A stretch of DNA of 64,000 bases, from assembly GCA_036496605.1 (NCBI GenBank), contig DASXKV010000022.1:1-64000 (forward strand). Reading direction: 5' to 3'. Below are positions 1,126 through 14,124 of this stretch, one piece after another. The notes beneath the pieces were generated by a model. It worked only from the letters and a program-made list of their open reading frames with translations. It had not been told where the DNA came from and did no database searches. Both the position numbers and the translations under genes were made by a program. Positions within the stretch are counted from its first letter, which is position 1, and each line of letters begins with the position of its first letter. The DNA is from Gemmatimonadaceae bacterium (GTDB taxonomy: Bacteria; Gemmatimonadota; Gemmatimonadetes; Gemmatimonadales; Gemmatimonadaceae).

Positions 1126-1794
1126 ATGCGCCTTCTGCTGGTGGAGGATGACCCGGAGCTCGCGTCGATTCTCGAGTCGGGACTGCGAGAACAGGGCATT
1201 CAGGTCTCTCTCGCGTCGACGATGCCCGCGGGACGCGTCGAAGCGACGCGCAACCGCTTCGACGTGATCGTGCTCGACGTGATGCTGCCGGGCGGCTCGG
1301 GAATCGATCTCTGTCGCGATCTTCGCGGTCGAGGGATCTCGACGCCGATCCTGATGCTCACCGCGCGCGATGCGATCGACGATCGCGTCGTTGGACTCGA
1401 AGTGGGTGCCGACGATTATGTGACGAAGCCCTTCGCGTTTCGCGAGCTCGTTGCACGCGTACGCGCGCTCGCGCGCCGGCGGCAGGCACTCGTCCCGCGG
1501 GTCGTCACCGTCGCCGATCTCGAGGTCGATCTCGCGTCGCGACAGGTGCGCCGCGCCGGAATCGCGATCGAGCTCACGGCCAAGGAGTTCGCGCTCCTCG
1601 AATTCTTCGTCCTCCACCGGGGCGACGTCGTCGATCGCGCAGCGATCACGGCCCACGTCTGGGACGACAACCACGATCCGTTCACGAACGTCCTCGAAGT
1701 GCTCGTTAGGCGACTGCGCCGGAAGATCGACGATGATTTCGAGCCAAAGCTCATTCACACCCTGCGCGGTGCCGGCTACCGCTTCGCCGACTAG
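1126..1794 (+). CDS. OmpR/PhoB-family response regulator
   Basis: A 222-residue regulator. Receiver domain, residues 1-118: acidic pair D8/D9, phosphoacceptor D51 (VIVLDVMLPGG), T79 and K101 (YVTKPF). C-terminal winged helix, about 125-222, with the usual GAGYRF near the end. The ATG at 1126 was chosen because the family begins MRxLLVEDD; the open frame extends upstream without homology. The sensor kinase starts 9 bases after the stop, so the two are co-transcribed. Closest subgroup by appearance is QseB/CusR/PmrA. Pho-box-like repeats at 3864 and 11080, next to efflux and PAP2 genes, are candidate binding sites, since OmpR-type dimers bind direct repeats with 11-bp phasing. Confidence 0.93.
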   Translation: MRLLLVEDDPELASILESGLREQGIQVSLASTMPAGRVEATRNRFDVIVLDVMLPGGSGIDLCRDLRGRGISTPILMLTARDAIDDRVVGLEVGADDYVTKPFAFRELVARVRALARRRQALVPRVVTVADLEVDLASRQVRRAGIAIELTAKEFALLEFFVLHRGDVVDRAAITAHVWDDNHDPFTNVLEVLVRRLRRKIDDDFEPKLIHTLRGAGYRFAD

Positions 1795-1803
1795 ACTCCT
1801 GTC

Positions 1804-3096
1804 ATGGCGCGCTCGCTTCAACCACTGGCTCGACTTCGTCTCGGGCTCACCGCCTGGTATCTCGCCACGTTCGGGGCAATTCTCGTCTTCCTTGGCGGAG
1901 GGATCTTCGTCGTCATCGGGCGCCAGTTTGCTGAGCAGCTCGATGATTCGTTGCACGACGCGACGGTGGAGCTGGAGCGCGCGGCCCGGATTCGTGAGAT
2001 GGAATCGAAGACCGCACGAGGGCAGGTCGTCGACGCGGTCGAGGAGCTCCACATCCCCGAGCGAAGCTTGTACTTGCTCGACGTGAGCGGACAGCCCGTG
2101 AGCCCCCTGGCTGCCGGCAGCTGGATCCAGCTCGCCGCTCGAGACGCGGCCCGTATCGGGACCGTGAAACGCGACCAGGACCCGCGCCGCGATCACACAC
2201 TGCGGTTGAGAGCGGAACGGTTCACGCTGGCGGGCGGCACGCCGATGGTCGCCGTCGCCGTCGCCGACAAGGTGGAGCTCGAAGACCGTTATGCATCGCT
2301 CATCGCGACTTTTGGAGCAGCGGCGGCGGCGGCGTTGCTCCTCGTCGTCGCCGGCGGCTGGTTCCTCGTGCGCAAATCGACCGCGCCCGTCGAGCTCACC
2401 ATCGACCACATGCGGCGATTCATGGCCGACGCCGCGCACGAGCTGCGAACGCCACTCACCGTGTTGCGCAGCCGTGCCGAAGTCGCCCTCCAGCAACCGC
2501 GCCACGCCGGCGAGTACGAAGACGCCCTTCGCGGCATCGAGCTCGAGGCGAAGCGACTCGGCACCATCGTTGAGGATTTGCTCATCCTCGCCCGCGCCGA
2601 TGCCGGCGAGCGCCCGATCGCACACGAGCGCGTCTACCTCGACGATCTGACGCTGGACGCCGCGGGCGCGGCGCGCGTGGTCGCGCAGGCCAAGGGCGTC
2701 GCGCTCGAGCTGGACGAATTCGGCGAAGCGCCCGTTGACGGCGACCCAACCTTGCTTCGCCAGCTCGTGATGATCCTGCTCGACAACGCAGTGAAGTTCA
2801 CCGCGCGCGGTGGCAGCGTGCGTGTCCGTGTCGGAGCGCCGAACGAGCGCCCGCTGCTCGTGGTCGAAGACACCGGCATCGGAATCGCCGCGGAGCAGTT
2901 GCCTCACGTCTTCGAGCGCTTTTATCGGGGAGATCCGGCACGCAGCCGCGGAAACGGCTCAGTGGACGGGGCCGGCCTAGGCCTATCGATCGCGAAATGG
3001 ATCGCTGACGTCCACCACGCGGAAATCGCTCTTGCCTCGGAACCCGGGCAGGGAACTCGGGTGTCGGTTCGCTTTGCGCCGGTCGCCGCAGCCTGA
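1804..3096 (+). CDS. Sensor histidine kinase, partner of the 1126 regulator
   Basis: A 430-residue inner-membrane kinase. TM1 is about residues 17-38, a periplasmic sensor region 39-165, and TM2 166-189. The H-box AHELRTPLT holds H212. ATP-binding motifs follow: N-box (LLDNAVKFT), G1 (VEDTGIGI), F-box (ERFYRGD) and G2 (GAGLGLSI). Only about 22 residues separate TM2 from the phosphoacceptor histidine, so the roughly 50-residue HAMP linker normal in this class is absent or reduced to a short basic stretch. It forms an operon with the response regulator upstream and ends 8 bases before the convergent PAP2 gene. The sensed signal is unknown; envelope or metal stress fits the neighbours. Confidence 0.92.
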   Translation: MARSLQPLARLRLGLTAWYLATFGAILVFLGGGIFVVIGRQFAEQLDDSLHDATVELERAARIREMESKTARGQVVDAVEELHIPERSLYLLDVSGQPVSPLAAGSWIQLAARDAARIGTVKRDQDPRRDHTLRLRAERFTLAGGTPMVAVAVADKVELEDRYASLIATFGAAAAAALLLVVAGGWFLVRKSTAPVELTIDHMRRFMADAAHELRTPLTVLRSRAEVALQQPRHAGEYEDALRGIELEAKRLGTIVEDLLILARADAGERPIAHERVYLDDLTLDAAGAARVVAQAKGVALELDEFGEAPVDGDPTLLRQLVMILLDNAVKFTARGGSVRVRVGAPNERPLLVVEDTGIGIAAEQLPHVFERFYRGDPARSRGNGSVDGAGLGLSIAKWIADVHHAEIALASEPGQGTRVSVRFAPVAAA

Positions 3097-3104
3097 TCGT
3101 CGCC

Positions 3105-3800
3105 CTATCTCGTTCGCAGCCAGGAATCCACTTCCCGCGCAACCTCCACGCCGAGCATTCCGCTCACCACGACATCGCTCGACCAATGCTGATCGCGATA
3201 AACGCGCTGAGCGCCGACGTACGTGATCGCTGCGACGGCAAGCACAGTGACCCACGGCCGGTTCGCCTCGAGCGCGACCGCAGACGCGAGGCTCGAGATG
3301 TGGACGACGTGCGCGGAGGGGAATGACTGGTACGTCCCGCTAGCGCTGAAGGGACGAAAGGTCAGTGGATCGTGGCCCGCGATGGGTCTTGCTTCTCCAA
3401 GCATCGGTTTGAGCACCGATTCGATCGCGTCCGCCGCCGCGTAGCTCAAACCGACGCGCAAGGTTGCCGCCGCGAAGGACTGCTGACCTAACAGGCGCGA
3501 GCCGACGTAGGTCATCACCAGCGCCGGTACGATATGACCGGCGGTTCCGAGGATGTCGGCACCAGCGGCGACGCGATCGAGCTGCGGCGAATGATTGGCG
3601 AGCGCGATCGTGCGCAACCGTTCATCGAAGGCGAACGACGCCGCGGCGAGCACAGTCGAAGCCGCCCAAACCGCGCGCTCGTGATCGGTGGAGGCACGTA
3701 CGGTGCGTAAGGACGGCTCGGTCGTTGACTGCGCGCGCGTGGGTATGGCAGCAGCGCAGAACGCGAGCGTAACGGTTAGACGATAGAGCCAGTGGGTCAT
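3105..3800 (-). CDS. PAP2-superfamily phosphatase, exported
   Basis: A 231-residue protein with a signal peptide or N-terminal anchor (LTVTLAFCAAAIPTRAQS). All PAP2 active-site elements are present: C1 KPMLGEARP, C2 SFPSAH (Ala in place of the usual Gly of PSGH) and C3 R-x5-H-x3-D in RVYRDQHWSSD. These enzymes remove phosphate from lipid substrates such as undecaprenyl pyrophosphate, phosphatidyl-glycerophosphate or lipid A at the periplasmic face. Two ATGs are adjacent (3803, 3800); AGGAGG lies 5 bases before the second, which I chose. The gene is divergent from the efflux operon at 3922, and the Pho-box-like repeat at 3864 lies between them. The specific substrate cannot be told. Confidence 0.85.
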   Translation of the reverse strand: MTHWLYRLTVTLAFCAAAIPTRAQSTTEPSLRTVRASTDHERAVWAASTVLAAASFAFDERLRTIALANHSPQLDRVAAGADILGTAGHIVPALVMTYVGSRLLGQQSFAAATLRVGLSYAAADAIESVLKPMLGEARPIAGHDPLTFRPFSASGTYQSFPSAHVVHISSLASAVALEANRPWVTVLAVAAITYVGAQRVYRDQHWSSDVVVSGMLGVEVAREVDSWLRTR

Positions 3801-3863
3801 CATCGCCTCCTGCTCTCCCCAATATGCTAGCGGGACCGCCGTGTCGCACTCAATGAACACACA

Positions 3864-3881
3864 CTGTCATCGTCCTGTCAG
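3864..3881 (+). promoter_or_regulatory. Pho-box-like direct repeat between PAP2 and efflux operon
   Basis: CTGTCAT-CGTC-CTGTCAG: two 7-bp half-sites with an 11-bp start-to-start phase, the arrangement of the E. coli Pho box (CTGTCAT N4 CTGTCAT). It lies 41 bases before the TolC start codon, in the divergent promoter region shared with the PAP2 gene at 3105. Binding by the regulator at 1126 is inferred. Confidence 0.55.
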
Positions 3882-3921
3882 GTTCGACGGATAGCGTTTA
3901 CTGAGCACTACAAACAAGGGT

Positions 3922-5142
3922 ATGGGCGCTCGATTCGCGTCAGCGAGTACTTGTTTCGTTATCGCCATAGTGTCGGCCGCCGGGGATGCGGTTGCGCAGC
4001 GACCGGTATCGCGCGCGCAGGCGATCGACGCGGCCGTCACCGTCGGTCCTCGGCTTGCCCTCGCGCAGGCCGATACGGCTGTCGCGCTGGCGGCGCTGAT
4101 CTCGGCGAGTGCGCTTCCCAATCCGACGCTCGCTGCGAGCTATACCAAAGACCTGCCGACGCGCCACGCGACGCTCGAGTTTCCTCTCGATTTTCCATGG
4201 CTTCGCGCTCCGCGCGTCGGTTCGGCAAACGCCGCACTGGCCGCGGCGCAATATCAGTACACGTTCACGCGAGCATCGGCGGCCCTCGACGCGGACACGA
4301 CGTACACGCGCGCGCTGGCTGCGCGTGAGCACGCCCGACTCTCCCGGCACAACGCTCAGGACGCGGATAGTCTCCGTCGCATGGCGGCGGTGCGCCGCGA
4401 TGCCGGCGACGCCAGTGAGCTCGACGTCGAGCTGGCGACGGTCAATGCCGGTCAACAGGCGAACCTCGCGGCGGCCGATTCGATGGAGTATGTCTCGGTC
4501 CTGCTCGACCTCCAGACGCTGATGGGGCTCGTTGCAACGGACGCTGAGGTCACCCCCACGGATTCGTTAGGCATTCCCGCCGTTGGCGACGGCGACGCCA
4601 ACGTGCCGATTGCGTCGACACTCACCGTCGTGGCCGCAGAGCAAACGCTCAAGTCGGCGCAGCTCAACGCACGACTTCAGCATCGCAGCGTATGGTCGTC
4701 CGCCAGCGTCATTGCGGGATTCGATTGGGGCGACCCGACGAATCCGGGCGCACTGCCGAACGTCGGCGTTTCACTGCCGGTGCCGCTCTTTTCCCGAGCA
4801 CGCGGGCCAATCACGCAAGCGCAAGCCGAACTGCAGCGCGCTCAGGCGGCTCTCGCACTGGCACGTGTGGAAGGCTCGGCGCGGATTGCGCGGGCGCGTC
4901 GCGAGCGGGACATCGCGCTCGCGAAAGTCAACCGCGACCGCATTCTGCTCGCGAGCGCCAATCGCGTCGCTTCGATGTCGCTGACGTCGTACCGCGAGGG
5001 TCAGTCGTCGCTGCCTAACGTGCTCGAGGCGCAGCGCAATGCGCGCGACATTCTCGGACAATACATCGACGACCTCGCGGCGGCGTTGATCGCCGCGGCG
5101 TCCCTGCGGGTTTACGTTCTCACTCCGGCGAGCGCACGGTAA
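3922..5142 (+). CDS. TolC-family outer-membrane efflux channel (first RND operon)
   Basis: A 406-residue exported protein: signal peptide about residues 1-26 (CFVIAIVSAAGDAVAQ), then the two-fold repeat of long alpha-helices and short beta segments of the outer-membrane factor family. The C-terminal half has ARxRRERDIALAKVNRDRI and SLTSYREGQSSLPNVLEAQRN, the usual periplasmic barrel helices. It provides the exit duct for the adaptor and pump encoded next. Its stop overlaps the adaptor ATG (TAATG), so translation is coupled. The start ATG has AAGGG three bases upstream. At 406 residues it resembles CzcC/CusC-like channels more than E. coli TolC. A Pho-box-like repeat lies 41 bases upstream. 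Confidence 0.88.
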   Translation: MGARFASASTCFVIAIVSAAGDAVAQRPVSRAQAIDAAVTVGPRLALAQADTAVALAALISASALPNPTLAASYTKDLPTRHATLEFPLDFPWLRAPRVGSANAALAAAQYQYTFTRASAALDADTTYTRALAAREHARLSRHNAQDADSLRRMAAVRRDAGDASELDVELATVNAGQQANLAAADSMEYVSVLLDLQTLMGLVATDAEVTPTDSLGIPAVGDGDANVPIASTLTVVAAEQTLKSAQLNARLQHRSVWSSASVIAGFDWGDPTNPGALPNVGVSLPVPLFSRARGPITQAQAELQRAQAALALARVEGSARIARARRERDIALAKVNRDRILLASANRVASMSLTSYREGQSSLPNVLEAQRNARDILGQYIDDLAAALIAAASLRVYVLTPASAR

Positions 5143-6245
5143 TGACGACATGGATTCGATGCGGCGTCCTGTTCTGGTCCGTGCTCTTCGTGACGGTCGC
5201 GGGTTGTCACGACGGCCAAGCGGCGGGCGACGCGGAGAAGGGTACGCCCGCGATCGTCGGCGTACAGACCGCTCAAGTGACGAAGGGTCCCTTCACCGAG
5301 ACGCTAGGCGCGATCGGTACGGTCGTGCCGCGGCCTGGCCACGTCGCGGCGCTGGCCGCGCCACAGGCCGCGCGCATCTCGCAGGTCTATGTCACGGCCG
5401 GCCAACACGTCACGCAGGGTGAGCCGCTCGTCGAGCTCGATCAAACTCCCTTTCGCGCTGCTACGGAAGCTGCCGAGGCGACGCTCGCCGCCGCCGAGAA
5501 GGCGAACGAGCGCCAGCAACGCCTCGCGACTGAAGGCATAGTGCCACGCAAGGACGCGGATCAGGCGGCCGCGGAGGCAGCGAAGGCGCGTGCCGACGCC
5601 GGGAACGCGCGCCGCGCGGAGCAGCTCTCGGTAGTTCGTGCGCCGTTAGGCGGTGTCGTGACGCGAATGACAGCGGTCCTCGGCTCGACAGCCGACGTCG
5701 CGCAGCCGCTCGTCGAGGTCGCCGACCCCGCCGCGCTCGACATCCTGCTCAACGTGACACCGAATGACGCCGCGCGATTGCGGCGCGGCGCGAAGGTGAC
5801 GCTCACCGCCGGGCAGAACGCCACCGGAGATGCCCTCGGCGTCGGCAGCGTCATCGACATCGGCGGAACGGTGGACACATCGAGCCGGAGCGTCAACGTG
5901 CGCGTGCAGGCGCCCACGACGCGCCGCCCGCTCCGCATCAGCGAGACGGTCTTTGGCCAGATCGCCGTCACCGTCCACCCGAACGCGATCGTCGTACCCC
6001 TCGAGGCGCTCGTCCCGGACGGCGAGGACTTCAAGGTCTTCGTTGTCGATGCAGCGGGCATGGCGCACGAGCGCAAAGTGAGCATTGGCGGACGAACCGA
6101 CAAAGTCGCCGAGATCACTCAGGGCCTAACGGGTGACGAGAGAGTCGTCACGTATGGCGCCTATGGCGTGTCGGATAGTGCGAAGGTCGTACCCGCGAAG
6201 CAGGCCGCGACGCCCGCTGCGTCAGATTCGGAGAAGAAGCCGTGA
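5142..6245 (+). CDS. RND periplasmic adaptor (membrane fusion) lipoprotein
   Basis: A 367-residue adaptor. The lipobox VAGC near residue 22 (VTVAGCHDG) indicates lipidation and inner-membrane anchoring. It is followed by a barrel-sandwich half (GTVVPRPGHVAALAAPQAAR), a helical hairpin (AAEATLAAAEKANERQQRLA) and the second lipoyl half (LSVVRAPLGGVVTRM). Beta-barrel and membrane-proximal domains follow (VVPLEALVPDGEDFKVFVVD). The adaptor bridges the pump at 6242 and the channel at 3922. It overlaps both neighbours by a few bases, so the three genes form a tight operon. It contains two copies of the over-represented octamer. Confidence 0.9.
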   Translation: MTTWIRCGVLFWSVLFVTVAGCHDGQAAGDAEKGTPAIVGVQTAQVTKGPFTETLGAIGTVVPRPGHVAALAAPQAARISQVYVTAGQHVTQGEPLVELDQTPFRAATEAAEATLAAAEKANERQQRLATEGIVPRKDADQAAAEAAKARADAGNARRAEQLSVVRAPLGGVVTRMTAVLGSTADVAQPLVEVADPAALDILLNVTPNDAARLRRGAKVTLTAGQNATGDALGVGSVIDIGGTVDTSSRSVNVRVQAPTTRRPLRISETVFGQIAVTVHPNAIVVPLEALVPDGEDFKVFVVDAAGMAHERKVSIGGRTDKVAEITQGLTGDERVVTYGAYGVSDSAKVVPAKQAATPAASDSEKKP

Positions 6246-9200
6246 GTGTGTTGGCCGAGCCAATCGATGTGACCGAGCCGCGACGCGAGGGGCGCGGCCT
6301 GTTTGGCGTCCTCAACGAACAGCGTCGCTTCGTCTATCTCGCCGTAGTGCTGTTGACCGTTGGGGGAATCTGGGCCGCGCTGCAATTGCCGTCGGCGATC
6401 TATCCGGAGCTCGTGTTCTCGCGCATAACGGTTGTCTCGCAAGGCACGTCACTTGGCGCGCGTCAGGTGCTGTTCACCGTCACGCGTCCGATCGAAGAGG
6501 CCGTGAGCATCGTCCCCGGCGTCACGCGCGTACAATCGCGGTCGATCCGAGGCGGGAGCGAGATCAATGTGACCTTCTCGCCGACAACCGACATGATTTA
6601 CGCGCTGCAACAAGTGCAGGCGCGCGTGAATCAGATACGCGCCGACTTTCCCCCCGAGCTCGACATCGAGGTGGAACGTCTCACGCCGTCGCTGTTTCCA
6701 ATCCTCTCATACAATCTCGAGGGTGGCGACGCCGCGACGCTCTACGACATCGCACGGTACCAGATCCGTCCGCTGATCTCTCGCGTGCCGGGCGTCGGGC
6801 GCGTCGACGTTCAGGGAAGCGACGTGCGCGAGATCGAGGTCGTCGCCGATCCGGCGCGACTCGCCGGGCAGGGTATGACCTACGACGATCTCGCCAACGC
6901 GATCAAGCAGTCGACGAGCGTCGCCGCGGTTGGTCGCATGCCGGCGAACTACAAACAGTATCTGATCGTCAGCGCTCAGGAAGCGCATTCGAGAGACGAT
7001 ATCGCAAACATCGTTATCGGCCATGGACTACGCGTTCGCGATGTCGCGACGGTGATGGACGGCACCGAGGATCACGTTCGCATCATCTCCGGCGATGGAC
7101 GCCCGGCCGCGCTGCTCAACATCACGCGACAGATCGGCGGCAATACCATCAGCATTGCGGACAGCGTCGCGGCGATTGCCGCGGCTCTCAAAGGCCAACT
7201 GCCGCCCGGCGTCCGACTCAAAGCGGTCTATGACCAGGCTGCTCTGGTGCGCGACGCGGTGAAGTCGGTGCGCGACGCGATGCTCATCGGCGCGGCGCTC
7301 GCGGTCATCATCCTGCTACTCTTCCTCCGCCACTATCGAATCACCGCGATCAGCGCGTCTTCGATTCCGCTGACGATGGCGATCACGGTCTTCGTGATGG
7401 CGCGGTTGGGTCAGACGTTCAACCTGATGACACTCGGCGCGATGGCGATCGCGATCGGGCTTGTGATCGACGACGCCGTCGTCATCACCGAGAACATCGT
7501 CAGGCACACGCACCTCAACCATGATCACGACGCGGCGATCCGCGATGCCGTGCAGGAGCTCATCTGGCCGGTGACGACATCGACGATCACGACCGTCGTC
7601 GTCTTTCTGCCGTTAGGGCTGCTCACGGGCGTCGAGGGTCAGTTCTTCCATGCGCTCTCGATCACGCTCACGATCGCCGTTCTGGTCTCGCTGCTCCTCG
7701 CCCTCACGATCATTCCGTTACTGAGCGCGCAGTATCTCACGCCGAGGGACACCGAGGATGCGACCACGCCAGAGGAGATTCGTCGCGAGGGCGGTATCCT
7801 GTGGCGGATCGGCCAGGGTGTCGACGCCGTTTCGCATCGTTATGAACGATCTCTCAGCACGCTGCTGAATCACGCGCGGTGGATGGTCCTCATCGCGGTC
7901 GGTCTCGTCCTCGCCGGAGTCGTCGCGCATCATTTCGTCGGCACCGGCTTCCTGCCGGAGATGGACGAAGGCGCATTCGTGATGGATTACTTCACGCCCG
8001 GCGGCACGGCCCTCGCCGAAACCGATCGCGAGCTGCACATCGCGGAAGGCATTCTTGCGCGCACGCCGGAGATCACCGGCACGTCGCGCCGAACGGGCGC
8101 GGAGCTCGGATTGTTCGCGACGCAGCAGAACACCGGCGACGTGGTCGCGCGACTCGCCCCACCGAGCCAACGAACGCGTTCGATCTTCCAGGTGATCGAC
8201 GACGTTCGCGACAAGATCAGCGCCGCGGTGCCGCGTCTTCACATCGAGTTCGTGCAGATCTTGTCGGATGTCATCAACGATCTCGCGGGGGCAGCACGGC
8301 CTGTGGAAATCCGGCTCTTCGGCCCGGATCTCAACGCGCTCGAAGCCTACGCGCAGAAACTCGCACCGCAGATCGAGAAGGTCGATGGCATCGAGGATCT
8401 CTACAACGGCGTCGCGGAACCGAGCGCCGAAATGGCCATGACGGTCAACGAGCCGGAGGCGAATCGCGTCGGATTCACGCCGGATCAGGTGCAGAACGCG
8501 GTGAGCGGCGCGTTGATGGGCGTGCCGGCGGGCGAAGTGCGTCTCGAGGACCGTTCGATAGCGGTTCGGGTGCGCGCTCCGGATTCGGTGCGCTTCAGTC
8601 CGCAGCAGCTCGGTGCGCTCCCGATCGTCGCGTCGACGACGAAGGCGGCCGTGCCGCTGTCGTCGCTCGCCGGCTTCCAAGCGCAGGACACGCGGGGCGA
8701 GCTCTTGCGACAGAACCAGCAGCAGATGATCCAGATTCACTCGGATCTCGGCGATCGATCGTTAGGCGCCGTGATGGCCGACGTCCGTTCGATTCTCACG
8801 AAGAATCCCGCGCCGGCGGGCATCCGCATCGAGATCGGCGGCCAGTACGCCAGCCAGCAGGAAGCGTTTCACGCACTGTTGCTCGTGCTCGCGCTGGCCG
8901 CCGCGAGCGTGATCTCGGTGATGGTGATTCAGTTCCAGTCCTTTGTCGAGCCGCTCGTGGTCCTGCTCGCAGCGCCATTATCGTTCGTCGGCGCGATGGT
9001 TTTGCTTCTCGTCACGGGCACGCCGCTCAACGTGTCGAGCTTCATGGGACTGATCCTGCTCGTTGGGCTGATCGTCAAGAACGGCATCATCCTGCTCGAC
9101 TTCACGCGGCATCGCATGAAGACGGATGGACTCGCACTGGAGCCGGCGATTCGCGAGGCGGCGCGGATCCGTCTGCGCCCGATTCTCATGACGACGTTGT

Positions 9201-9388
9201 GCACGCTATTCGGCCTTCTGCCGTTGGCCCTGGGACTCGGCGCGGGGAGCGAGCTTCAGAAGCCGCTTGCGCTCGCCGTCATCGGGGGATTGGCGCTGTC
9301 GACGCCGATCACGCTCTATCTGGTGCCAACGCTGCTCGTCGCGATTCGCGGCAGTGAGTATACACTCAATCAAGAGGCGATCGGATGA
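6242..9388 (+). CDS. RND efflux pump, inner-membrane transporter (first system)
   Basis: A 1048-residue transporter of normal RND length. It has TM1 near the N-terminus, a porter domain, TM2-6 with the proton-relay Asp pair in LVIDDAVVITENIVRH at about residue 400, a second periplasmic domain and TM8-12 ending LYLVPTLLVAIR. The start is GTG 6242, overlapping the adaptor TGA. The DDAVxxxEN pattern is that of drug-type (HAE/AcrB-like) pumps more than heavy-metal CzcA/CusA pumps, but the substrate is not decided by this. The next gene begins at 9385 with an ATGA overlap, so a periplasmic beta-propeller protein and a PAP2 phosphatase belong to the same transcript. Confidence 0.93.
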   Translation: MSVLAEPIDVTEPRREGRGLFGVLNEQRRFVYLAVVLLTVGGIWAALQLPSAIYPELVFSRITVVSQGTSLGARQVLFTVTRPIEEAVSIVPGVTRVQSRSIRGGSEINVTFSPTTDMIYALQQVQARVNQIRADFPPELDIEVERLTPSLFPILSYNLEGGDAATLYDIARYQIRPLISRVPGVGRVDVQGSDVREIEVVADPARLAGQGMTYDDLANAIKQSTSVAAVGRMPANYKQYLIVSAQEAHSRDDIANIVIGHGLRVRDVATVMDGTEDHVRIISGDGRPAALLNITRQIGGNTISIADSVAAIAAALKGQLPPGVRLKAVYDQAALVRDAVKSVRDAMLIGAALAVIILLLFLRHYRITAISASSIPLTMAITVFVMARLGQTFNLMTLGAMAIAIGLVIDDAVVITENIVRHTHLNHDHDAAIRDAVQELIWPVTTSTITTVVVFLPLGLLTGVEGQFFHALSITLTIAVLVSLLLALTIIPLLSAQYLTPRDTEDATTPEEIRREGGILWRIGQGVDAVSHRYERSLSTLLNHARWMVLIAVGLVLAGVVAHHFVGTGFLPEMDEGAFVMDYFTPGGTALAETDRELHIAEGILARTPEITGTSRRTGAELGLFATQQNTGDVVARLAPPSQRTRSIFQVIDDVRDKISAAVPRLHIEFVQILSDVINDLAGAARPVEIRLFGPDLNALEAYAQKLAPQIEKVDGIEDLYNGVAEPSAEMAMTVNEPEANRVGFTPDQVQNAVSGALMGVPAGEVRLEDRSIAVRVRAPDSVRFSPQQLGALPIVASTTKAAVPLSSLAGFQAQDTRGELLRQNQQQMIQIHSDLGDRSLGAVMADVRSILTKNPAPAGIRIEIGGQYASQQEAFHALLLVLALAAASVISVMVIQFQSFVEPLVVLLAAPLSFVGAMVLLLVTGTPLNVSSFMGLILLVGLIVKNGIILLDFTRHRMKTDGLALEPAIREAARIRLRPILMTTLCTLFGLLPLALGLGAGSELQKPLALAVIGGLALSTPITLYLVPTLLVAIRGSEYTLNQEAIG

Positions 9389-10220
9389 CGAACACGACAT
9401 CGATCGTCGCCGCGATCGTAGCGTTAGGTGGCGCGATGTTCGCGAGTGCGGTCGCGGCTCAAGGCACGGGCTACCATGTGGCGCTCGCGATAGCAGCGTG
9501 GTGACGTTCGATTTGAAAACGCTCAAGGTGCTGGGTCGCACGACGGCGGCCGACGACGCGGATGCGATCGCCTACGATCCGATATCCAAACGCGTCTACA
9601 CCTTCAACGGAGACGCCAACTCGTCGAGCGTCATCGATCCGGCGAGCGGGCAACGCGTCGGCACAATCACGCTCGGTGGAAAGCCGGAGTACGGCGTGTC
9701 GGCTGGTGACGGGAAAGTATACGCGAACATCGAGGACAAGGCCGAAGTCGTCGAGATCGACGCGGCGACCCAGAAGGTGGCGCGCCGCTGGTCCCTCGCG
9801 CCCTGTCAGTCACCGACAGGCCTCGCGATCGACCGAGCCCATCATCTCCTGTTCAGCGGATGCCGCAGTAAACATCTCGCGATCTCGGACATGGATAAAG
9901 GAAAATTGATCACGACATTGCCGATCGGCGCGGGAGTGGACGCCACTGCCTTCGATCTCGGCACCGAGAATGCATTCGCCTCGAACGGCGATGGCACGCT
10001 TACTGTCGTGCACGAAGACTCGCCGGATCGTTTTCGCGTTGTGCAGACAGTGACGACGATGCCCGGCGCGCGCACGATGGCGCTCGATCCACGATCGCAT
10101 CGTCTGTTTCTCGTGAGCGCGCAATTCGGGCCGGCACCGACGGAGTCGACCGCGGCGAGTCCGCGGCGGCGGCCGCCGGTGATTCCTGGCTCATTCACTC
10201 TTCTCGTCGTGGAGCAATGA
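9385..10220 (+). pseudogene. YncE-like beta-propeller protein, broken by a frameshift/deletion
   Basis: ATG 9385 opens a clean signal peptide (IVALGGAMFASAVAAQGTGYHV) but the frame stops at TGA 9502-9504. From about 9480 a different frame encodes a typical periplasmic YncE/NHL-type propeller: RDSSVVTFDLKTLKVLG, YDPISKRVYTFNGD, KVYANIEDKAEVVEID and so on, ending TGA 10218-10220. Such proteins normally have about one more blade (about 45 residues) between the signal peptide and DSSVVTF, so a deletion that is not a multiple of three is the simplest reading. The downstream part could be translated from internal GTGs (9498, 9501) but without export. An assembly collapse of repeated blades is the alternative. 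The gene sits in the efflux operon and overlaps the next ATG. Confidence 0.75.
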
Positions 10221-11077
10221 TTCGATCGATTCGCCTGCACCCGATTATAAGTGTTCTAACGTACGCGGCGACCGGAGTGACGGCGCTTGCTCCCGTGGCA
10301 CGCTCGCAGCCGGCGCTTCCGCCGAAGGCGAAGGCCGACAGCGCGAAGACGCCGGCGGCGTTGTTCACCACCAAGGACTACCTGATTGGCGGCGCCTTCG
10401 TCGTCGGGACGTTCGCGATGTTTCCGTTCGACCAGCGCCTCGCGAAGCACCTCACCAACCCCGGGGCGCAGGCAAACAAGTTCTTCAAGAACGCATCGAC
10501 GGGGGTCGAGTGGATCGCGAGTCCCGGTGCGTACGTCATCGGCGGTTCACTCTACGCCGTGGGCCGCATCGGGCACTTCGAGCGCGTCGCAGACCTCGGC
10601 TGGCACGGGACCGAAGCGGTGTTCGTCGCCGACGCCGTGACGTATGCGCTCAAGGGCCTCGCTGGCCGAGCACGCCCCTTCTTCGCGGGCGATACCCTGC
10701 CCAACGATTTCAAGTTTGCTAAAGGGTTCCGGGACGGCAACCGGCAATCGTTCCCGTCAGGCCACGCGACGTCGGCGTTTGCTGCGGCGGCAGCCGTGAC
10801 GGCCGAGACCGGCACGTGGTGGCCGAAGTCGACGTGGGTGATCGGGCCGCTCATGTATGGTGGCGCGACGATGGTCGGACTCTCGCGCATGTATCACAAC
10901 AAGCACTGGGCCTCGGACGTCGTGCTGGGCGCCGCGATCGGGACCTTCAGTGGTCAGAAAATCGTGCAGTACTCTCACGCGCACCCAACGCGTCTCGACA
11001 AGGTCATGCTGCATGTCTCGGCGTTGCCCGACGGAAATGGCGGTTGGGCGCTGGCCTGGTCGGGAACGCTGCCCTAG
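10217..11077 (+). CDS. PAP2-superfamily phosphatase, last gene of the first efflux operon
   Basis: A 286-residue protein with an N-terminal signal or anchor (ISVLTYAATGVTALAPVARSQ). PAP2 motifs are complete: C1 KGLAGRARP, C2 QSFPSGHATS and C3 SRMYHNKHWASD. Hydrophobic stretches around TTKDYLIGGAFVVGTFAM and LGAAIGTFSGQKIV suggest membrane association. The start overlaps the propeller gene stop (ATGA), so it is cotranscribed with the pump. It is similar in layout to the protein encoded at 12141 (same spacing, same C-terminal extension with a WALAWSGTLP-like end), so the two are probably paralogues. The substrate is unknown; a phosphorylated envelope lipid is likely from the family. Confidence 0.88.
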   Translation: MIRSIRLHPIISVLTYAATGVTALAPVARSQPALPPKAKADSAKTPAALFTTKDYLIGGAFVVGTFAMFPFDQRLAKHLTNPGAQANKFFKNASTGVEWIASPGAYVIGGSLYAVGRIGHFERVADLGWHGTEAVFVADAVTYALKGLAGRARPFFAGDTLPNDFKFAKGFRDGNRQSFPSGHATSAFAAAAAVTAETGTWWPKSTWVIGPLMYGGATMVGLSRMYHNKHWASDVVLGAAIGTFSGQKIVQYSHAHPTRLDKVMLHVSALPDGNGGWALAWSGTLP

Positions 11078-11079
11078 GG

Positions 11080-11097
11080 CTGTCATCGTGCCGTCAG
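11080..11097 (+). promoter_or_regulatory. Second Pho-box-like direct repeat
   Basis: CTGTCAT-CGTG-CCGTCAG, the same first half-site and nearly the same spacer as the site at 3864, with one mismatch in the second half. It starts 3 bases after the PAP2 stop and precedes the small secreted peptide at 11158 and the PAP2 gene at 11280, suggesting a separate promoter for them under the same regulator. Confidence 0.5.
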
Positions 11098-11157
11098 GTA
11101 CGCTGCCTACGTTCAGAAGCGGGAAGAGAATACTGAACTTCTAGCGCGGGCTGGATC

Positions 11158-11265
11158 ATGAAGTTTGTCACGTACGCGACGTTGTTCGCGGCAATGTTGA
11201 CCGTCGGCCCGGCCGCGACCGCGCAGGCGCAAGAGACCAAGGCGTTAGCAAAGAAGAAGCCGTAA
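11158..11265 (+). CDS. 35-residue secreted peptide
   Basis: ATG 11158 to TAA 11263-11265. The product is MKFVTYATLF, then a hydrophobic stretch AAMLTVGPAAT, a probable signal peptidase site AQAQ, and a lysine-rich tail ETKALAKKKP. It is thus nearly all signal peptide plus a short basic mature tail of about ten residues. It lies 14 bases before the GTG of the PAP2 gene at 11280 and 60 bases after a Pho-box-like repeat. It may be a small envelope peptide, or its translation may serve to load ribosomes onto the next gene. No family is recognised. Confidence 0.5.
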   Translation: MKFVTYATLFAAMLTVGPAATAQAQETKALAKKKP

Positions 11266-11279
11266 CGAGACTGAGCGTT

Positions 11280-12011
11280 GTGGCGGACGATTCAAGTAGC
11301 GGCGAGCTGTCGCCGGTGGAACGCGCGAGGAGATTCCTCGCTGCCCGGTTCGATCCGAGATCCCACCTCGGCCTGGGACTGACGGCGAGTCTCGTCCTCT
11401 CGGCGCTTGCCATATGGGCACTCGGCGGATTGCTCGACGCGATCCTCGACAACGATTTGCTGGTGCGCGTCGACATGCGTGTGGAGTCGTGGCTCCATGC
11501 GCACGCGACGGCGACCGGGCTGGCGATTTTCGACGCGGTGACGCAACTCGGATCGACGGTCGTCGACGTCGTGACGGTTCTCGTCGCGATCTATTTCTGG
11601 CGCAAGAGGAATTCCGTCCTCCTCTGGAGCTGGATCGGCGCCAATCTCGGCGGCAAGGTTGTTGAGTATGTGCTCAAGTACACCGTGCACCGGTCGCGGC
11701 CCCAGTACGGCGCGGCTTTCCTGAACGGACACTCGTACAGTTTTCCGAGCGGGCACACGATGGGGGCTACCGTGTGCTATCTGCTCCTGGCCTATTTCAT
11801 CACCGCGCGTGCGACCGCGACGCACAGGGCTCGCATCGTCGTATTCATGTCGGCGATGACGATCATCGTCGCCGTGGCATTCAGCAGGCTGTATCTGGGC
11901 GTCCACTATCCGAGCGACGTACTCGGAGGATTCGTCGCGGGCGTCGCGTGGCTCGCTGTCTGTGGAGCGACGCGGCGCATCGTTGCGGGCCGTTATCGAT
12001 TCGCGACGTAG
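11280..12011 (+). CDS. PAP2-superfamily membrane phosphatase (PgpB/BcrC-like)
   Basis: A 243-residue polytopic protein with about six membrane helices (LTASLVLSALAIWALGGLLD; FDAVTQLGSTVVDVVTVLVA; RIVVFMSAMTIIVAVAFSRL). The motifs are canonical: C1 KYTVHRSRP, C2 YSFPSGHTMG and C3 SRLYLGVHYPSD. This is the integral-membrane class that includes undecaprenyl-diphosphate and phosphatidylglycerol-phosphate phosphatases, recycling lipid carriers at the outer face of the inner membrane. The GTG at 11280 gives the start; no strong Shine-Dalgarno is visible, and translation may be coupled to the peptide gene ending at 11265. It differs from its three PAP2 neighbours, which look like exported proteins rather than six-helix enzymes. 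Confidence 0.9.
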   Translation: MADDSSSGELSPVERARRFLAARFDPRSHLGLGLTASLVLSALAIWALGGLLDAILDNDLLVRVDMRVESWLHAHATATGLAIFDAVTQLGSTVVDVVTVLVAIYFWRKRNSVLLWSWIGANLGGKVVEYVLKYTVHRSRPQYGAAFLNGHSYSFPSGHTMGATVCYLLLAYFITARATATHRARIVVFMSAMTIIVAVAFSRLYLGVHYPSDVLGGFVAGVAWLAVCGATRRIVAGRYRFAT

Positions 12012-12140
12012 CCACCGGCAGAAAGACTCTTAGCGACTTCTTTGTCGCGGCGAGAGGGACTCGGTACTGTCTCCGCTGTAACACACGCGGTATCCGACAA
12101 GTCATGGTGAGTTTGATCCCGAACAGCGGCCGGCCGACGA

Positions 12141-13025
12141 ATGTCAGATAAGACGAGAAGACTTCGCACAGCCCTCGCGTGGATGGCACTGCTCGCCGCC
12201 GCGTCGCCCTTCCTCTTGCCGGCCGATGCGAGCGGTCAAGATACGAGCTCGTCGGCGCTCGCGACCGACACGAGCAGAACCGCCTCGTCCTCGCGTCAGT
12301 ACATCTCGCGCCGCGAGATGATCTTCGGTGGCGTCGCCGTCGTGGCGACCGGACTACTCGCTCCGCTGGATCGACCGATTCAGCGGAACTTGCAAGCCGA
12401 GGATCTTCAGGACGACCGAGGTCTGCGTCGAACCGCGAACGCGCTCGGATTCTCCGGAGGGCCCGGGCCCTTTATCGCGGGCGGCGCGATGTACTTCGTG
12501 GGCCTGGGTATGAGCTCTCCGAGGCTCGCTGCACTTGGAGTGCATCTGACGGAAGGTGTCGTCGTTGCCGCGGCGCTCAATGGACTCGTCAAAGGCCTCT
12601 CCGGTCGTGAGCTCCCGAATGCCACTTCGGGGAAGCCAGGACACTTCTCTTTTGGTCGCGGATTCCACGATGACAATGGACCGTTCGTGTCTTTTCCCTC
12701 GGGACATACCGCGGCCAGCTTTGCGGCGGCAGCGGTTCTGACCGACGAGGTGTCGAGTTGGGACTCGACGAAGGCACGCGTTGTCGGTCCGATCGCGTAC
12801 TCCTCGGCAACGCTTGTTGCCTTATCGCGCCTCTATTCGAACGTGCACTGGGCGAGTGACCTACCGCTCGGCGCGGCCATTGGCGTCTTGAGTGGAAAGG
12901 GGGTCGTGTTGTGGGAGCAGCGCCATCCATCGAACTGGCTCGACCGGCATCTCGTCGGCCTGACGATTGCACCCGCTGGCCGCGGCATGGTGCTCGCCGG
13001 ATCGATCCCGCTCGGCATGCGTTGA
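12141..13025 (+). CDS. PAP2-like protein with an altered C1 motif
   Basis: A 294-residue exported protein (signal ALAWMALLAAASPFLLPADASG). C2 (VSFPSGHTAAS) and C3 (SRLYSNVHWASD) are intact, but C1 reads KGLSGRELP where the family has K-x6-RP: the catalytic-pocket arginine is replaced by leucine. In the paralogue at 10217 the same stretch is KGLAGRARP. The change should weaken phosphate binding, so this copy may have altered specificity or be inactive; the arginine two residues earlier might compensate. The gene ends before a convergent lipoprotein gene. The 129-base upstream gap holds no clear operator, only a 15-codon frame (12104) overlapping the start. Confidence 0.82.
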   Translation: MSDKTRRLRTALAWMALLAAASPFLLPADASGQDTSSSALATDTSRTASSSRQYISRREMIFGGVAVVATGLLAPLDRPIQRNLQAEDLQDDRGLRRTANALGFSGGPGPFIAGGAMYFVGLGMSSPRLAALGVHLTEGVVVAAALNGLVKGLSGRELPNATSGKPGHFSFGRGFHDDNGPFVSFPSGHTAASFAAAAVLTDEVSSWDSTKARVVGPIAYSSATLVALSRLYSNVHWASDLPLGAAIGVLSGKGVVLWEQRHPSNWLDRHLVGLTIAPAGRGMVLAGSIPLGMR

Positions 13026-13074: not shown

Positions 13075-14124
13075 TTACTGTCGGACTCCGCTCGATGGCG
13101 TAGGTGCTGCGCCGCCCATTTTCTCGACGCCCATATCGAGCGCCATGGAGCGCCACTCTTCGCGCGAGACCACCTCGGTCGTCGAATCGCGGAAGGCCGC
13201 CAAGGCATGAAGAATGGCGGCTCGCTTGTCGCGATCGGCGACGACCGGCGACGCGAGAATGTCGGCGACGACGTCGTGCAGCGAATGCAGGTTGTCGAAG
13301 ATGATCGCGGCGTCCGGGTAGCGAGCGGCGAATCGAGGCGCGACGGCCGCGGCGAGCGGCATCGTCGTCGGCATGTGCGACGGCGCGTCGCTGATGAGTG
13401 TCCAGAAACGCGCGGTGGCGGCGTCGACGTTGCGGTGTCGGCCGGCGACGTCGTTCGTCGCGAGCAATGCGTCGTACAACACCATCTGATACCAGTGGTA
13501 CGACCAGAGCAGGCCGTTGAACTTGGGATCCTGACGACGAAAAACGAGCGAGTACGGCGCGCCTTCCATGAGCATCATGCTCTTTGGTCGGATGCTCAAC
13601 GCGATGTCCGACCGGCTCTCATAGTACCGCACGAGCTGACCAACTCGCGCGTCGCGCGCCGCGCTATCCAGCTTCTCGTCGGCCAGCACATCGTAGATCT
13701 GCCGGTGCAACACGTGCGCCCAATCGAACACCGCCGCGAGCTCGGGAACGAGCGTCGTGTAGCGCGGGCCAATCGCGTGCTCCTCGAGGGGAAGCTCGGG
13801 CGGATGCACGAGTAGCTGCGTGGTGATGAACCTGAACTCGCGGCCATCGATCTCGCGTGCAGCGACTTCCGGACGCCCCTCGTCGCTCAGGAGGCGCTCG
13901 TAGAGGATGGCGTGCCCATAATCGAATGCGTTGAAGAGCCGGTCAGAATGAGGGTAATTGTTCCGAAAGGCCCAATTGTATGACGCGCCGAGGTAGGTCT
14001 GCTCGGGTACGCGCGAAAACGAGCTGCAGCTCGCGAGTCCCGCGCTGACCGCGAAGAGCACCCCGAGCCCGGAAGCCCGGCCAGAGCCGAACAAGACATG
14101 CGTAGTCGTTCCGCATCCACTCAT
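13075..14124 (-). CDS. Orphan lipoprotein of unknown function
   Basis: A 349-residue product. The ATG at 14124 was chosen because it places a lipobox about 30 residues in (VSAGLASCSS); the frame remains open upstream but that part does not look like protein. The mature part is mostly helical and rich in Trp/Tyr/His: FRNNYPHSDRLFNAFDYGHA, FDWAHVLHRQIYDVLADE, LLWSYHWYQMVLYDALLA, FDNLHSLHDVVADILASP. Several histidines spaced for helix faces could bind metal or haem, but no known motif is visible. It faces the POTRA-protein gene at 14244 across a 119-base divergent promoter region. I do not recognise the family. Confidence 0.7.
   Translation of the reverse strand: MSGCGTTTHVLFGSGRASGLGVLFAVSAGLASCSSFSRVPEQTYLGASYNWAFRNNYPHSDRLFNAFDYGHAILYERLLSDEGRPEVAAREIDGREFRFITTQLLVHPPELPLEEHAIGPRYTTLVPELAAVFDWAHVLHRQIYDVLADEKLDSAARDARVGQLVRYYESRSDIALSIRPKSMMLMEGAPYSLVFRRQDPKFNGLLWSYHWYQMVLYDALLATNDVAGRHRNVDAATARFWTLISDAPSHMPTTMPLAAAVAPRFAARYPDAAIIFDNLHSLHDVVADILASPVVADRDKRAAILHALAAFRDSTTEVVSREEWRSMALDMGVEKMGGAAPTPSSGVRQ

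Follow-up and report, generated by a model that had tools for sequence, protein, structure and literature searches.

Four PAP2 phosphatase genes of different clades surround a regulated RND efflux operon in a Gemmatimonadaceae bacterium

Why would a bacterium gather four genes for PAP2-family phosphatases around one efflux pump? The question is raised by a stretch of 64,000 nucleotides from a soil bacterium of the Gemmatimonadaceae (assembly GCA_036496605.1, contig DASXKV010000022.1, positions 1 to 64,000 of the forward strand), which we call the window. The initial annotation described four PAP2 genes interleaved with an efflux operon, and this description holds. The four proteins, named here P1 to P4, are encoded where it placed them and all exceed 27.2 bits, the PF01569 gathering score by which we define PAP2 membership, and the genes for a TolC-type outer membrane efflux protein (OEP), a HlyD-type periplasmic adaptor (MFP) and an RND permease are real. 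The description omitted the two-component system at 1126-3096, composed of a response regulator (RR) and a sensor histidine kinase (HK), and a broken gene for a YncE-type beta-propeller protein. The observation of four PAP2 genes around a regulated pump is therefore confirmed and extended. We propose, with a probability of about 0.6, that this is a two-component-controlled tripartite RND locus that has acquired PAP2 genes time and again as accessories and has accumulated four of them here, from four clades.

The genome contains 19 PAP2 matches, the highest count among 179 genomes of the family, and four of 19 genes fall within so short a span in only 16 of 300,000 uniform random placements. 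We looked at the same pump elsewhere in the family, where orthologs of the RND permease (E <= 1e-290) occupy 72 loci in 71 of the 179 genomes. The flanks, 8 kb per side where the contig allows, were scanned with a PAP2 profile (E < 1e-20) and the expectation was derived from the PAP2 density of each genome. A PAP2 gene is found within 8 kb of the pump at 20 of the 72 loci compared to 1.42 expected, while the maximum of 100,000 simulations was 10. The excess persists when the window locus is excluded (19 of 71 loci, 1.38 expected) and when the count is made by genus (9 of 21 genera, 1.33 expected). Restricting the count to PAP2 proteins of 200-350 amino acids retains 14 of the 72 loci and 8 of the 21 genera, a genus count that 0 of 200,000 simulations reach; L156, counted among these 14, in fact belongs with the short proteins described below, leaving 13 loci and 7 genera. 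PAP2 genes of several subfamilies are therefore enriched beside orthologous pumps, and this enrichment favours a functional link of PAP2 proteins with the pump, as the initial annotation had supposed.

The other members of the locus recur as well. At 44 of the 72 loci the 8-kb flanks of the pump hold a gene best matching HK, and at 24 they hold a YncE-type beta-propeller gene. HK orthologs are present in 57 of the 179 genomes; within 10 kb of them, P3-type PAP2 genes are found at 8 of 57 places and P2/P4-type genes at 9 of 57 (10 gene pairs). The positions taken by PAP2 genes differ between genomes: in G138 a single strand carries, in order, YncE, P3, PepSY, MacB, RR, HK, OEP, MFP and RND, in G136 a PAP2 gene sits between HK and OEP, and in G052 and G055 a PAP2 gene directly follows RND with overlapping ends.

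Are the four proteins copies of one another? From 96 PAP2 proteins found, five were left out (E above 1e-20 or a domain under 110 residues) and the remaining 91 were placed in a tree made by a quick method, with SH-aLRT support only and several long-branched rows. Each window protein falls in a group of its own, comprising 11 rows for P1 (support 96), 10 for P2 (support 95), 24 for P3 (support 98) and 10 for P4 (support 100). The nearest pair is P2 and P4, which share a 39-row group (support 91) and 38 % identity, with P1 and P3 further away. Tandem duplication is ruled out by this separation of P2 and P4 into supported clades (3 rows with support 99 for P2, 10 rows with support 100 for P4) and the greater distance of the other two, so the cluster is not a recent tandem amplification. 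In another Gemmatimonadaceae genome, assembled from a metagenome, RR and HK homologs are followed downstream by three PAP2 genes that overlap at their ends and belong to different clades (L024, 6268-8743).

Within the genus, two genomes could be compared. On one 14.6-kb contig, G001 has the order OEP-MFP-RND-PepSY-P2(78 %)-P3(60 %)-X-BAM-like, X being a conserved protein that serves as a syntenic marker, with neither YncE nor P4; its P1 gene is on a separate contig away from any kinase. In G002 one contig carries OEP-MFP-RND-P2(80 %) and a second HK(84 %)-P1(61 %)-OEP; P1 adjoins HK only there and in the window. Linkage to the pump or to HK is thus kept for P1 (G002), for P2 (both genomes) and for P3 (in G001 and, at a greater distance, in other genera) but not for P4, and the gene neighbourhood is only partly conserved. 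The initial annotation took its proposal to be refuted if gene order was not shared beyond this strain and the proteins were also of unrelated subfamilies: the subfamilies proved distinct, falling in four clades, whereas the linkage of P1, P2 and P3 does extend beyond the strain. That three of the phosphatases adjoin the pump or the sensor in some relatives suggests that the phosphatases are exchangeable accessories of a pump for envelope stress.

The arrangement in the window (Table 1) constrains which of the genes may be transcribed together. The OEP, MFP and RND genes form an overlapping operon (3922-9388), and stop and start codons also overlap between RND and the YncE frame (9385-9388) and between that frame and P2 (10217-10220). 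P1 lies between HK and OEP, convergent to the former and divergent from the pump. Being on the opposite strand, it is outside the pump transcript, and only P2, perhaps with P3 and P4, can be inside. The earlier statement that one PAP2 gene belongs to the pump transcript is accordingly plausible for P2, given the overlapping codons, and does not apply to P1. Terminator-like sites show a weak excess in the locus (14 compared to 8.0 expected). Between 13075 and 15968 lie two conserved adjoining genes without a Pfam match, encoding X, for which the Pfam profile search of the window proteins found nothing, and an outer-membrane beta-barrel-like protein.

Table 1. Genes and other features of the pump locus, in window coordinates
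Feature	Position	Strand	Basis
RR, OmpR-family response regulator	1126..1794	+	gene call; open reading frame (ORF) listed from 1021
HK, sensor histidine kinase, partner of RR	1804..3096	+	Pfam HisKA and HATPase_c
P1, PAP2 protein, signal-like N-terminus	3105..3860	-	PF01569, 57.8 bits
OEP, TolC-type outer membrane efflux protein	3922..5142	+	PF02321, 71.4 bits
MFP, HlyD-type periplasmic adaptor	5142..6245	+	TIGR01730 RND_mfp, 167.6 bits, above cut-off 94.9
RND permease	6242..9388	+	PF00873, 762.6 bits, above threshold
Broken YncE-type beta-propeller gene	9385..10220	+	sequence, gene call, alignment to intact homolog
P2, PAP2 protein, signal-like N-terminus	10217..11077	+	PF01569, 78.0 bits
Mini-ORF of 35 amino acids, signal peptide and AKKKP tail	11158..11265	+	translation
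P3, membrane PAP2 protein, PgpB/YodM type	11280..12011	+	PF01569, 75.3 bits
P4, PAP2 protein, signal-like N-terminus	12141..13025	+	PF01569, 67.6 bits
X, conserved protein, syntenic marker (79 % in G001)	13075..14061	-	gene call

Two genes of the locus appear to be degraded in the window. The signal-peptide frame of the YncE gene occupies 9385-9504, and from about 9490 a different frame encodes the propeller, which lacks its N-terminal part; the gene product aligns only to residues 95-346 of a 347-residue homolog (69 % identity). No intact open frame for a YncE-type propeller exists in the window, while intact homologs are found elsewhere and stand beside the same pump in many relatives. A PepSY gene adjoins the P2 or P3 paralog in relatives, as in G001 (L033 9475-9840, PF03413 36.2 bits), with a similar gene at L191 18274-18654. 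The mini-ORF upstream of P3, with its signal peptide and lysine-rich, PepSY-type tail, is possibly the remnant of such a gene from which the domain was deleted. The YncE break and the PepSY loss may reflect either real decay or an assembly fault.

The canonical PAP2 motifs are C1 KxxxxxxRP, C2 PSGH and C3 SRxxxxxHxxxD, and their residues have the roles described in the PAP2/haloperoxidase literature. At the aligned positions P2 and P3 carry the complete, canonical set KRRPSGHRHD. P1 (KERPSAHRHD) has glutamate at position 6 of C1 and departs from the canonical C2 with PSAH in place of PSGH, a variant also present in several relatives within its clade. P4 (KRLPSGHRHD) departs from the canonical C1, with leucine for the arginine at position 8 (KGLSGRELP). 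This leucine is present in each of the 10 P4-clade rows and absent from the rest of the 91; in seven of those remaining rows yet other residues stand at this position, all in proteins of about 450-470 amino acids where the alignment is less sure. The possibility that P4 is a damaged copy of P2 is ruled out by the presence of the substitution throughout the clade, in genera g1, g5, g15 and g37. As it is common to the whole clade, the change is an old feature, and the missing C1 arginine would make P4 an altered or catalytically weak PAP2 protein. Altered motifs were also seen away from the P4 clade: one PAP2 clade (L049, L050, L051, L092, L100 and L024) has arginine for the C1 lysine and leucine, isoleucine or methionine for the glycine of PSGH, and PAP2-domain proteins of about 450-465 amino acids with an altered C1 motif lie near the pump in genus g15 (L123, L124, L125, L126 and L131). 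Judging from their start, we take the latter to be DedA-PAP2-like.

The initial annotation regarded three of the four proteins as exported. Signal-like N-termini are indeed present, but hydropathy and structure models indicate helical PAP2 folds that are not obviously soluble. P3, with five hydrophobic segments over the hydropathy threshold, matches B. subtilis YodM/PgpB (PDB 5jki) at E 2.6e-19 in a PDB sequence search; by this similarity and its intact catalytic residues, it is predicted to be a membrane lipid phosphatase, clearly PgpB/YodM-like. For P2 the PDB sequence matches are marginal only (E 0.055 or worse). Its predicted model (m2a5fbb0f72bb, pLDDT 70.8) is best matched, among the chains compared, by 5jki (VIA Z 18.2, rmsd, or root-mean-square deviation, 3.7 over 189 residues) and also matches Aquifex LpxE (6ebu; Z 15.8, rmsd 2.9 over 158 residues), the latter a likeness of fold only with no bearing on substrate. 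Both matches point to a membrane-type PAP2 fold. The predicted model of P4 has a pLDDT of 71.5. Compared with the characterised enzymes, B. subtilis PgpB/YodM (PDB 5jki, 6fmx) and Aquifex LpxE, P3 is a relative by sequence and P2 by fold, while P2 and P4 differ from them in their signal-like N-termini and C-terminal extension, P4 furthermore lacking the C1 arginine. None of the four reached the NCBIfam cut-off of a named equivalog, and against the undecaprenyl-pyrophosphate phosphatase and PgpB equivalogs (cut-offs 229-261) none scored above 37.8 bits.

How might such a set of genes work together? We hypothesize that the kinase senses envelope stress and that the regulator then turns on the pump and its neighbours. 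The pump would remove an amphiphile, an antibiotic or a lipid-linked product, and the PAP2 enzymes would hydrolyse lipid phosphates or pyrophosphates at the outer face of the inner membrane. Turnover of carrier lipids or phospholipids would thereby be maintained under envelope stress.

Several observations weigh against a locus with repeatedly added PAP2 accessories. At 52 of the 72 pump loci there is no PAP2 gene within 8 kb, which indicates that PAP2 is accessory and not core. Six of the 20 positive loci (g20, g40) owe their count to short PAP2 proteins that may be linked for other reasons; at five of them in g20 (L138, L147, L156, L172 and L186) a protein of about 176 amino acids from a separate subfamily is encoded beside a glycosyltransferase-like gene near the pump. 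The same may be true of L125, where the only PAP2 is a 450-amino-acid fusion type. The density null takes no account of common ancestry beyond the genus level. The two same-genus genomes are incomplete (79 % and 81 %), and in G001, the one contig that covers the site, P4 is not found between P3 and X. The window has the linkage of P1 and P2 in common with G002 and that of P2 and P3 with G001; P4 was either gained in the window lineage or lost in G001. In the window itself YncE is broken and PepSY missing or degenerate, and a consensus scan of the locus found no sigma-70-like promoter (0 compared to 1.9 expected). Finally, among 20 places examined from 28 listed YncE places outside the family, PAP2 is present at only two.

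At those same 20 places a two-component system is present at 8, an RND gene at 9 and both at 7. In the neighbourhoods of YncE in the seven top-ranked of 47 matching plasmid records, as raw counts without a chance control, PAP2 genes are found in four (Hymenobacter GOD-10R, Hymenobacter NBH84, Spirosoma and Sphingomonas), a two-component system in four and an RND gene in three, with YncE, PAP2, two-component system and RND all together in two (Hymenobacter GOD-10R and Sphingomonas). The Spirosoma and Sphingomonas plasmids combine PAP2, YncE and a two-component system, and Hymenobacter plasmid NZ_CP141185.1 (L222 7097-18741) carries PAP2-DUF347-YncE-PAP2-PepSY-like-RR-HK-TolC-MFP-RND. Small PepSY or PepSY-like genes recur beside such loci by annotation and Pfam, the GOD-10R protein being below the Pfam cut-off. 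The P2 search of the plasmid collection found no homologs.

One explanation for the cluster, offered by the initial annotation, is a resistance island against cationic peptides in which PAP2 enzymes strip lipid A phosphates or recycle undecaprenyl pyrophosphate while the pump exports the peptides. The PAP2 family does include LpxE and undecaprenyl-pyrophosphate phosphatases, the P2 model resembles the former, and LpxC is encoded elsewhere in the genome, which makes lipid A synthesis probable. Among published cases of a PAP2 gene that accompanies a resistance determinant, the nearest we found is the mcr-1-hpap2 cassette of colistin-resistance plasmids, where co-transcription of hpap2 with mcr-1 slightly raises the colistin resistance of E. 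coli (PMC7559476). It resembles the window locus in linking a mobile, auxiliary PAP2 gene, co-transcribable, to an envelope-stress determinant. The main determinant there, however, is a phosphoethanolamine transferase, the cassette as described there comes without a pump, propeller, PepSY or two-component system, and hpap2 by itself made cells resistant to neither colistin nor bacitracin (PMC7559476). No transferase of the EptA or Arn type appeared among the neighbours in the Pfam and NCBIfam runs, which included no search aimed at one. BacA is encoded elsewhere in the genome, so these PAP2 genes are not the only possible undecaprenyl-pyrophosphate phosphatases, and the sensor pair scores best on metal-type and not on PmrAB-type models. 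We consider peptide resistance unlikely; the link between PAP2 and pump is supported, while the specific proposal of lipid A, undecaprenyl pyrophosphate and peptides found no direct support.

Alternatively the locus may respond to metal stress, a CusRS/CzcRS-like system driving a metal or multidrug RND pump while PAP2 enzymes free phosphate or repair lipids. CusRS/CzcRS efflux loci place an OmpR-type two-component system next to OEP-MFP-RND, a layout that the window shares, and the best NCBIfam matches of RR (TIGR01387 cztR/silR/copR, 241.5 bits, below the cut-off of 279.2) and HK (TIGR01386, 192.8 bits, below 292.55) are both heavy-metal models. The permease scores 517.8 bits on TIGR00914 CusA/CzcA, its second PDB match is ZneA, and on the Spirosoma plasmid the cluster has a gene for heavy-metal transport/detoxification and one for an ArsR regulator nearby. 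That score is nevertheless under the heavy-metal cut-off of 701.45 and is exceeded by the one on the multidrug model NF033617 (600.5 bits, itself below the cut-off of 1250); the best PDB match is MdtB, and the visible sequence of the fourth transmembrane segment, VIDDAVV, holds what we take to be the aspartate pair typical of drug pumps. In contrast to CusRS/CzcRS loci, all three metal cut-offs are missed and PAP2, YncE and PepSY are added. A metal-stress locus seems improbable to us.

It is conceivable that RR-HK, TolC/MFP/RND, YncE, PepSY and paired PAP2 genes form an unnamed envelope module that moves horizontally among Gemmatimonadota, Bacteroidota and Sphingomonas, in which a lipid-linked phosphate compound is transported by the pump or coupled to it, the propeller gives the pump support and the P4 clade, its catalysis lost or changed, acts as a lipid-phosphate sensor or decoy. 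The role given to the propeller would be like that of MSMEG_5308, a seven-bladed beta-propeller protein that stabilises the RND transporter complex MmpL3/TtfA in mycobacteria (PMC6593404). The window YncE fragment weakly matches the NCBIfam model of the MSMEG_5308 family (22.2 bits, cut-off 600), and the likeness to the mycobacterial complex is one of analogy only. The mycobacterial complex as presented there belongs to another phylum and has no TolC-type tripartite pump and no PAP2 (PMC6593404). Taken jointly, these propositions amount to a very doubtful scenario.

That a PAP2-rich genome merely gathered unrelated PAP2 genes near a pump, as its record count, the four separate clades and the absence of P4 from the G001 syntenic site might suggest, is quite unlikely given how rarely random placement yields such a cluster and given that PAP2 genes adjoin the pump in 9 of 21 genera and such sets turn up again on plasmids from other phyla.

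The reading that we favour therefore remains a regulated RND locus with repeatedly acquired PAP2 accessories. It is a new variation on known parts: statistically the link to the pump is strong, comparable sets exist in other phyla, and we found no published description of PAP2 genes with RND, YncE, PepSY and a two-component system in a search that mostly did not extend to subscription literature. Should the arrangement be merely a quirk of genome organisation, it would mean that a PAP2 gene near a pump need not signal peptide resistance. In the P4 clade, nature itself provides a test of PAP2 function without the C1 arginine. Many RND pumps are treated as drug exporters complete in themselves; if one pump lineage is repeatedly linked, in several phyla, with its two-component system, a periplasmic propeller and lipid phosphatases, this would suggest that its activity is coupled to the turnover of carrier lipids or phospholipids.

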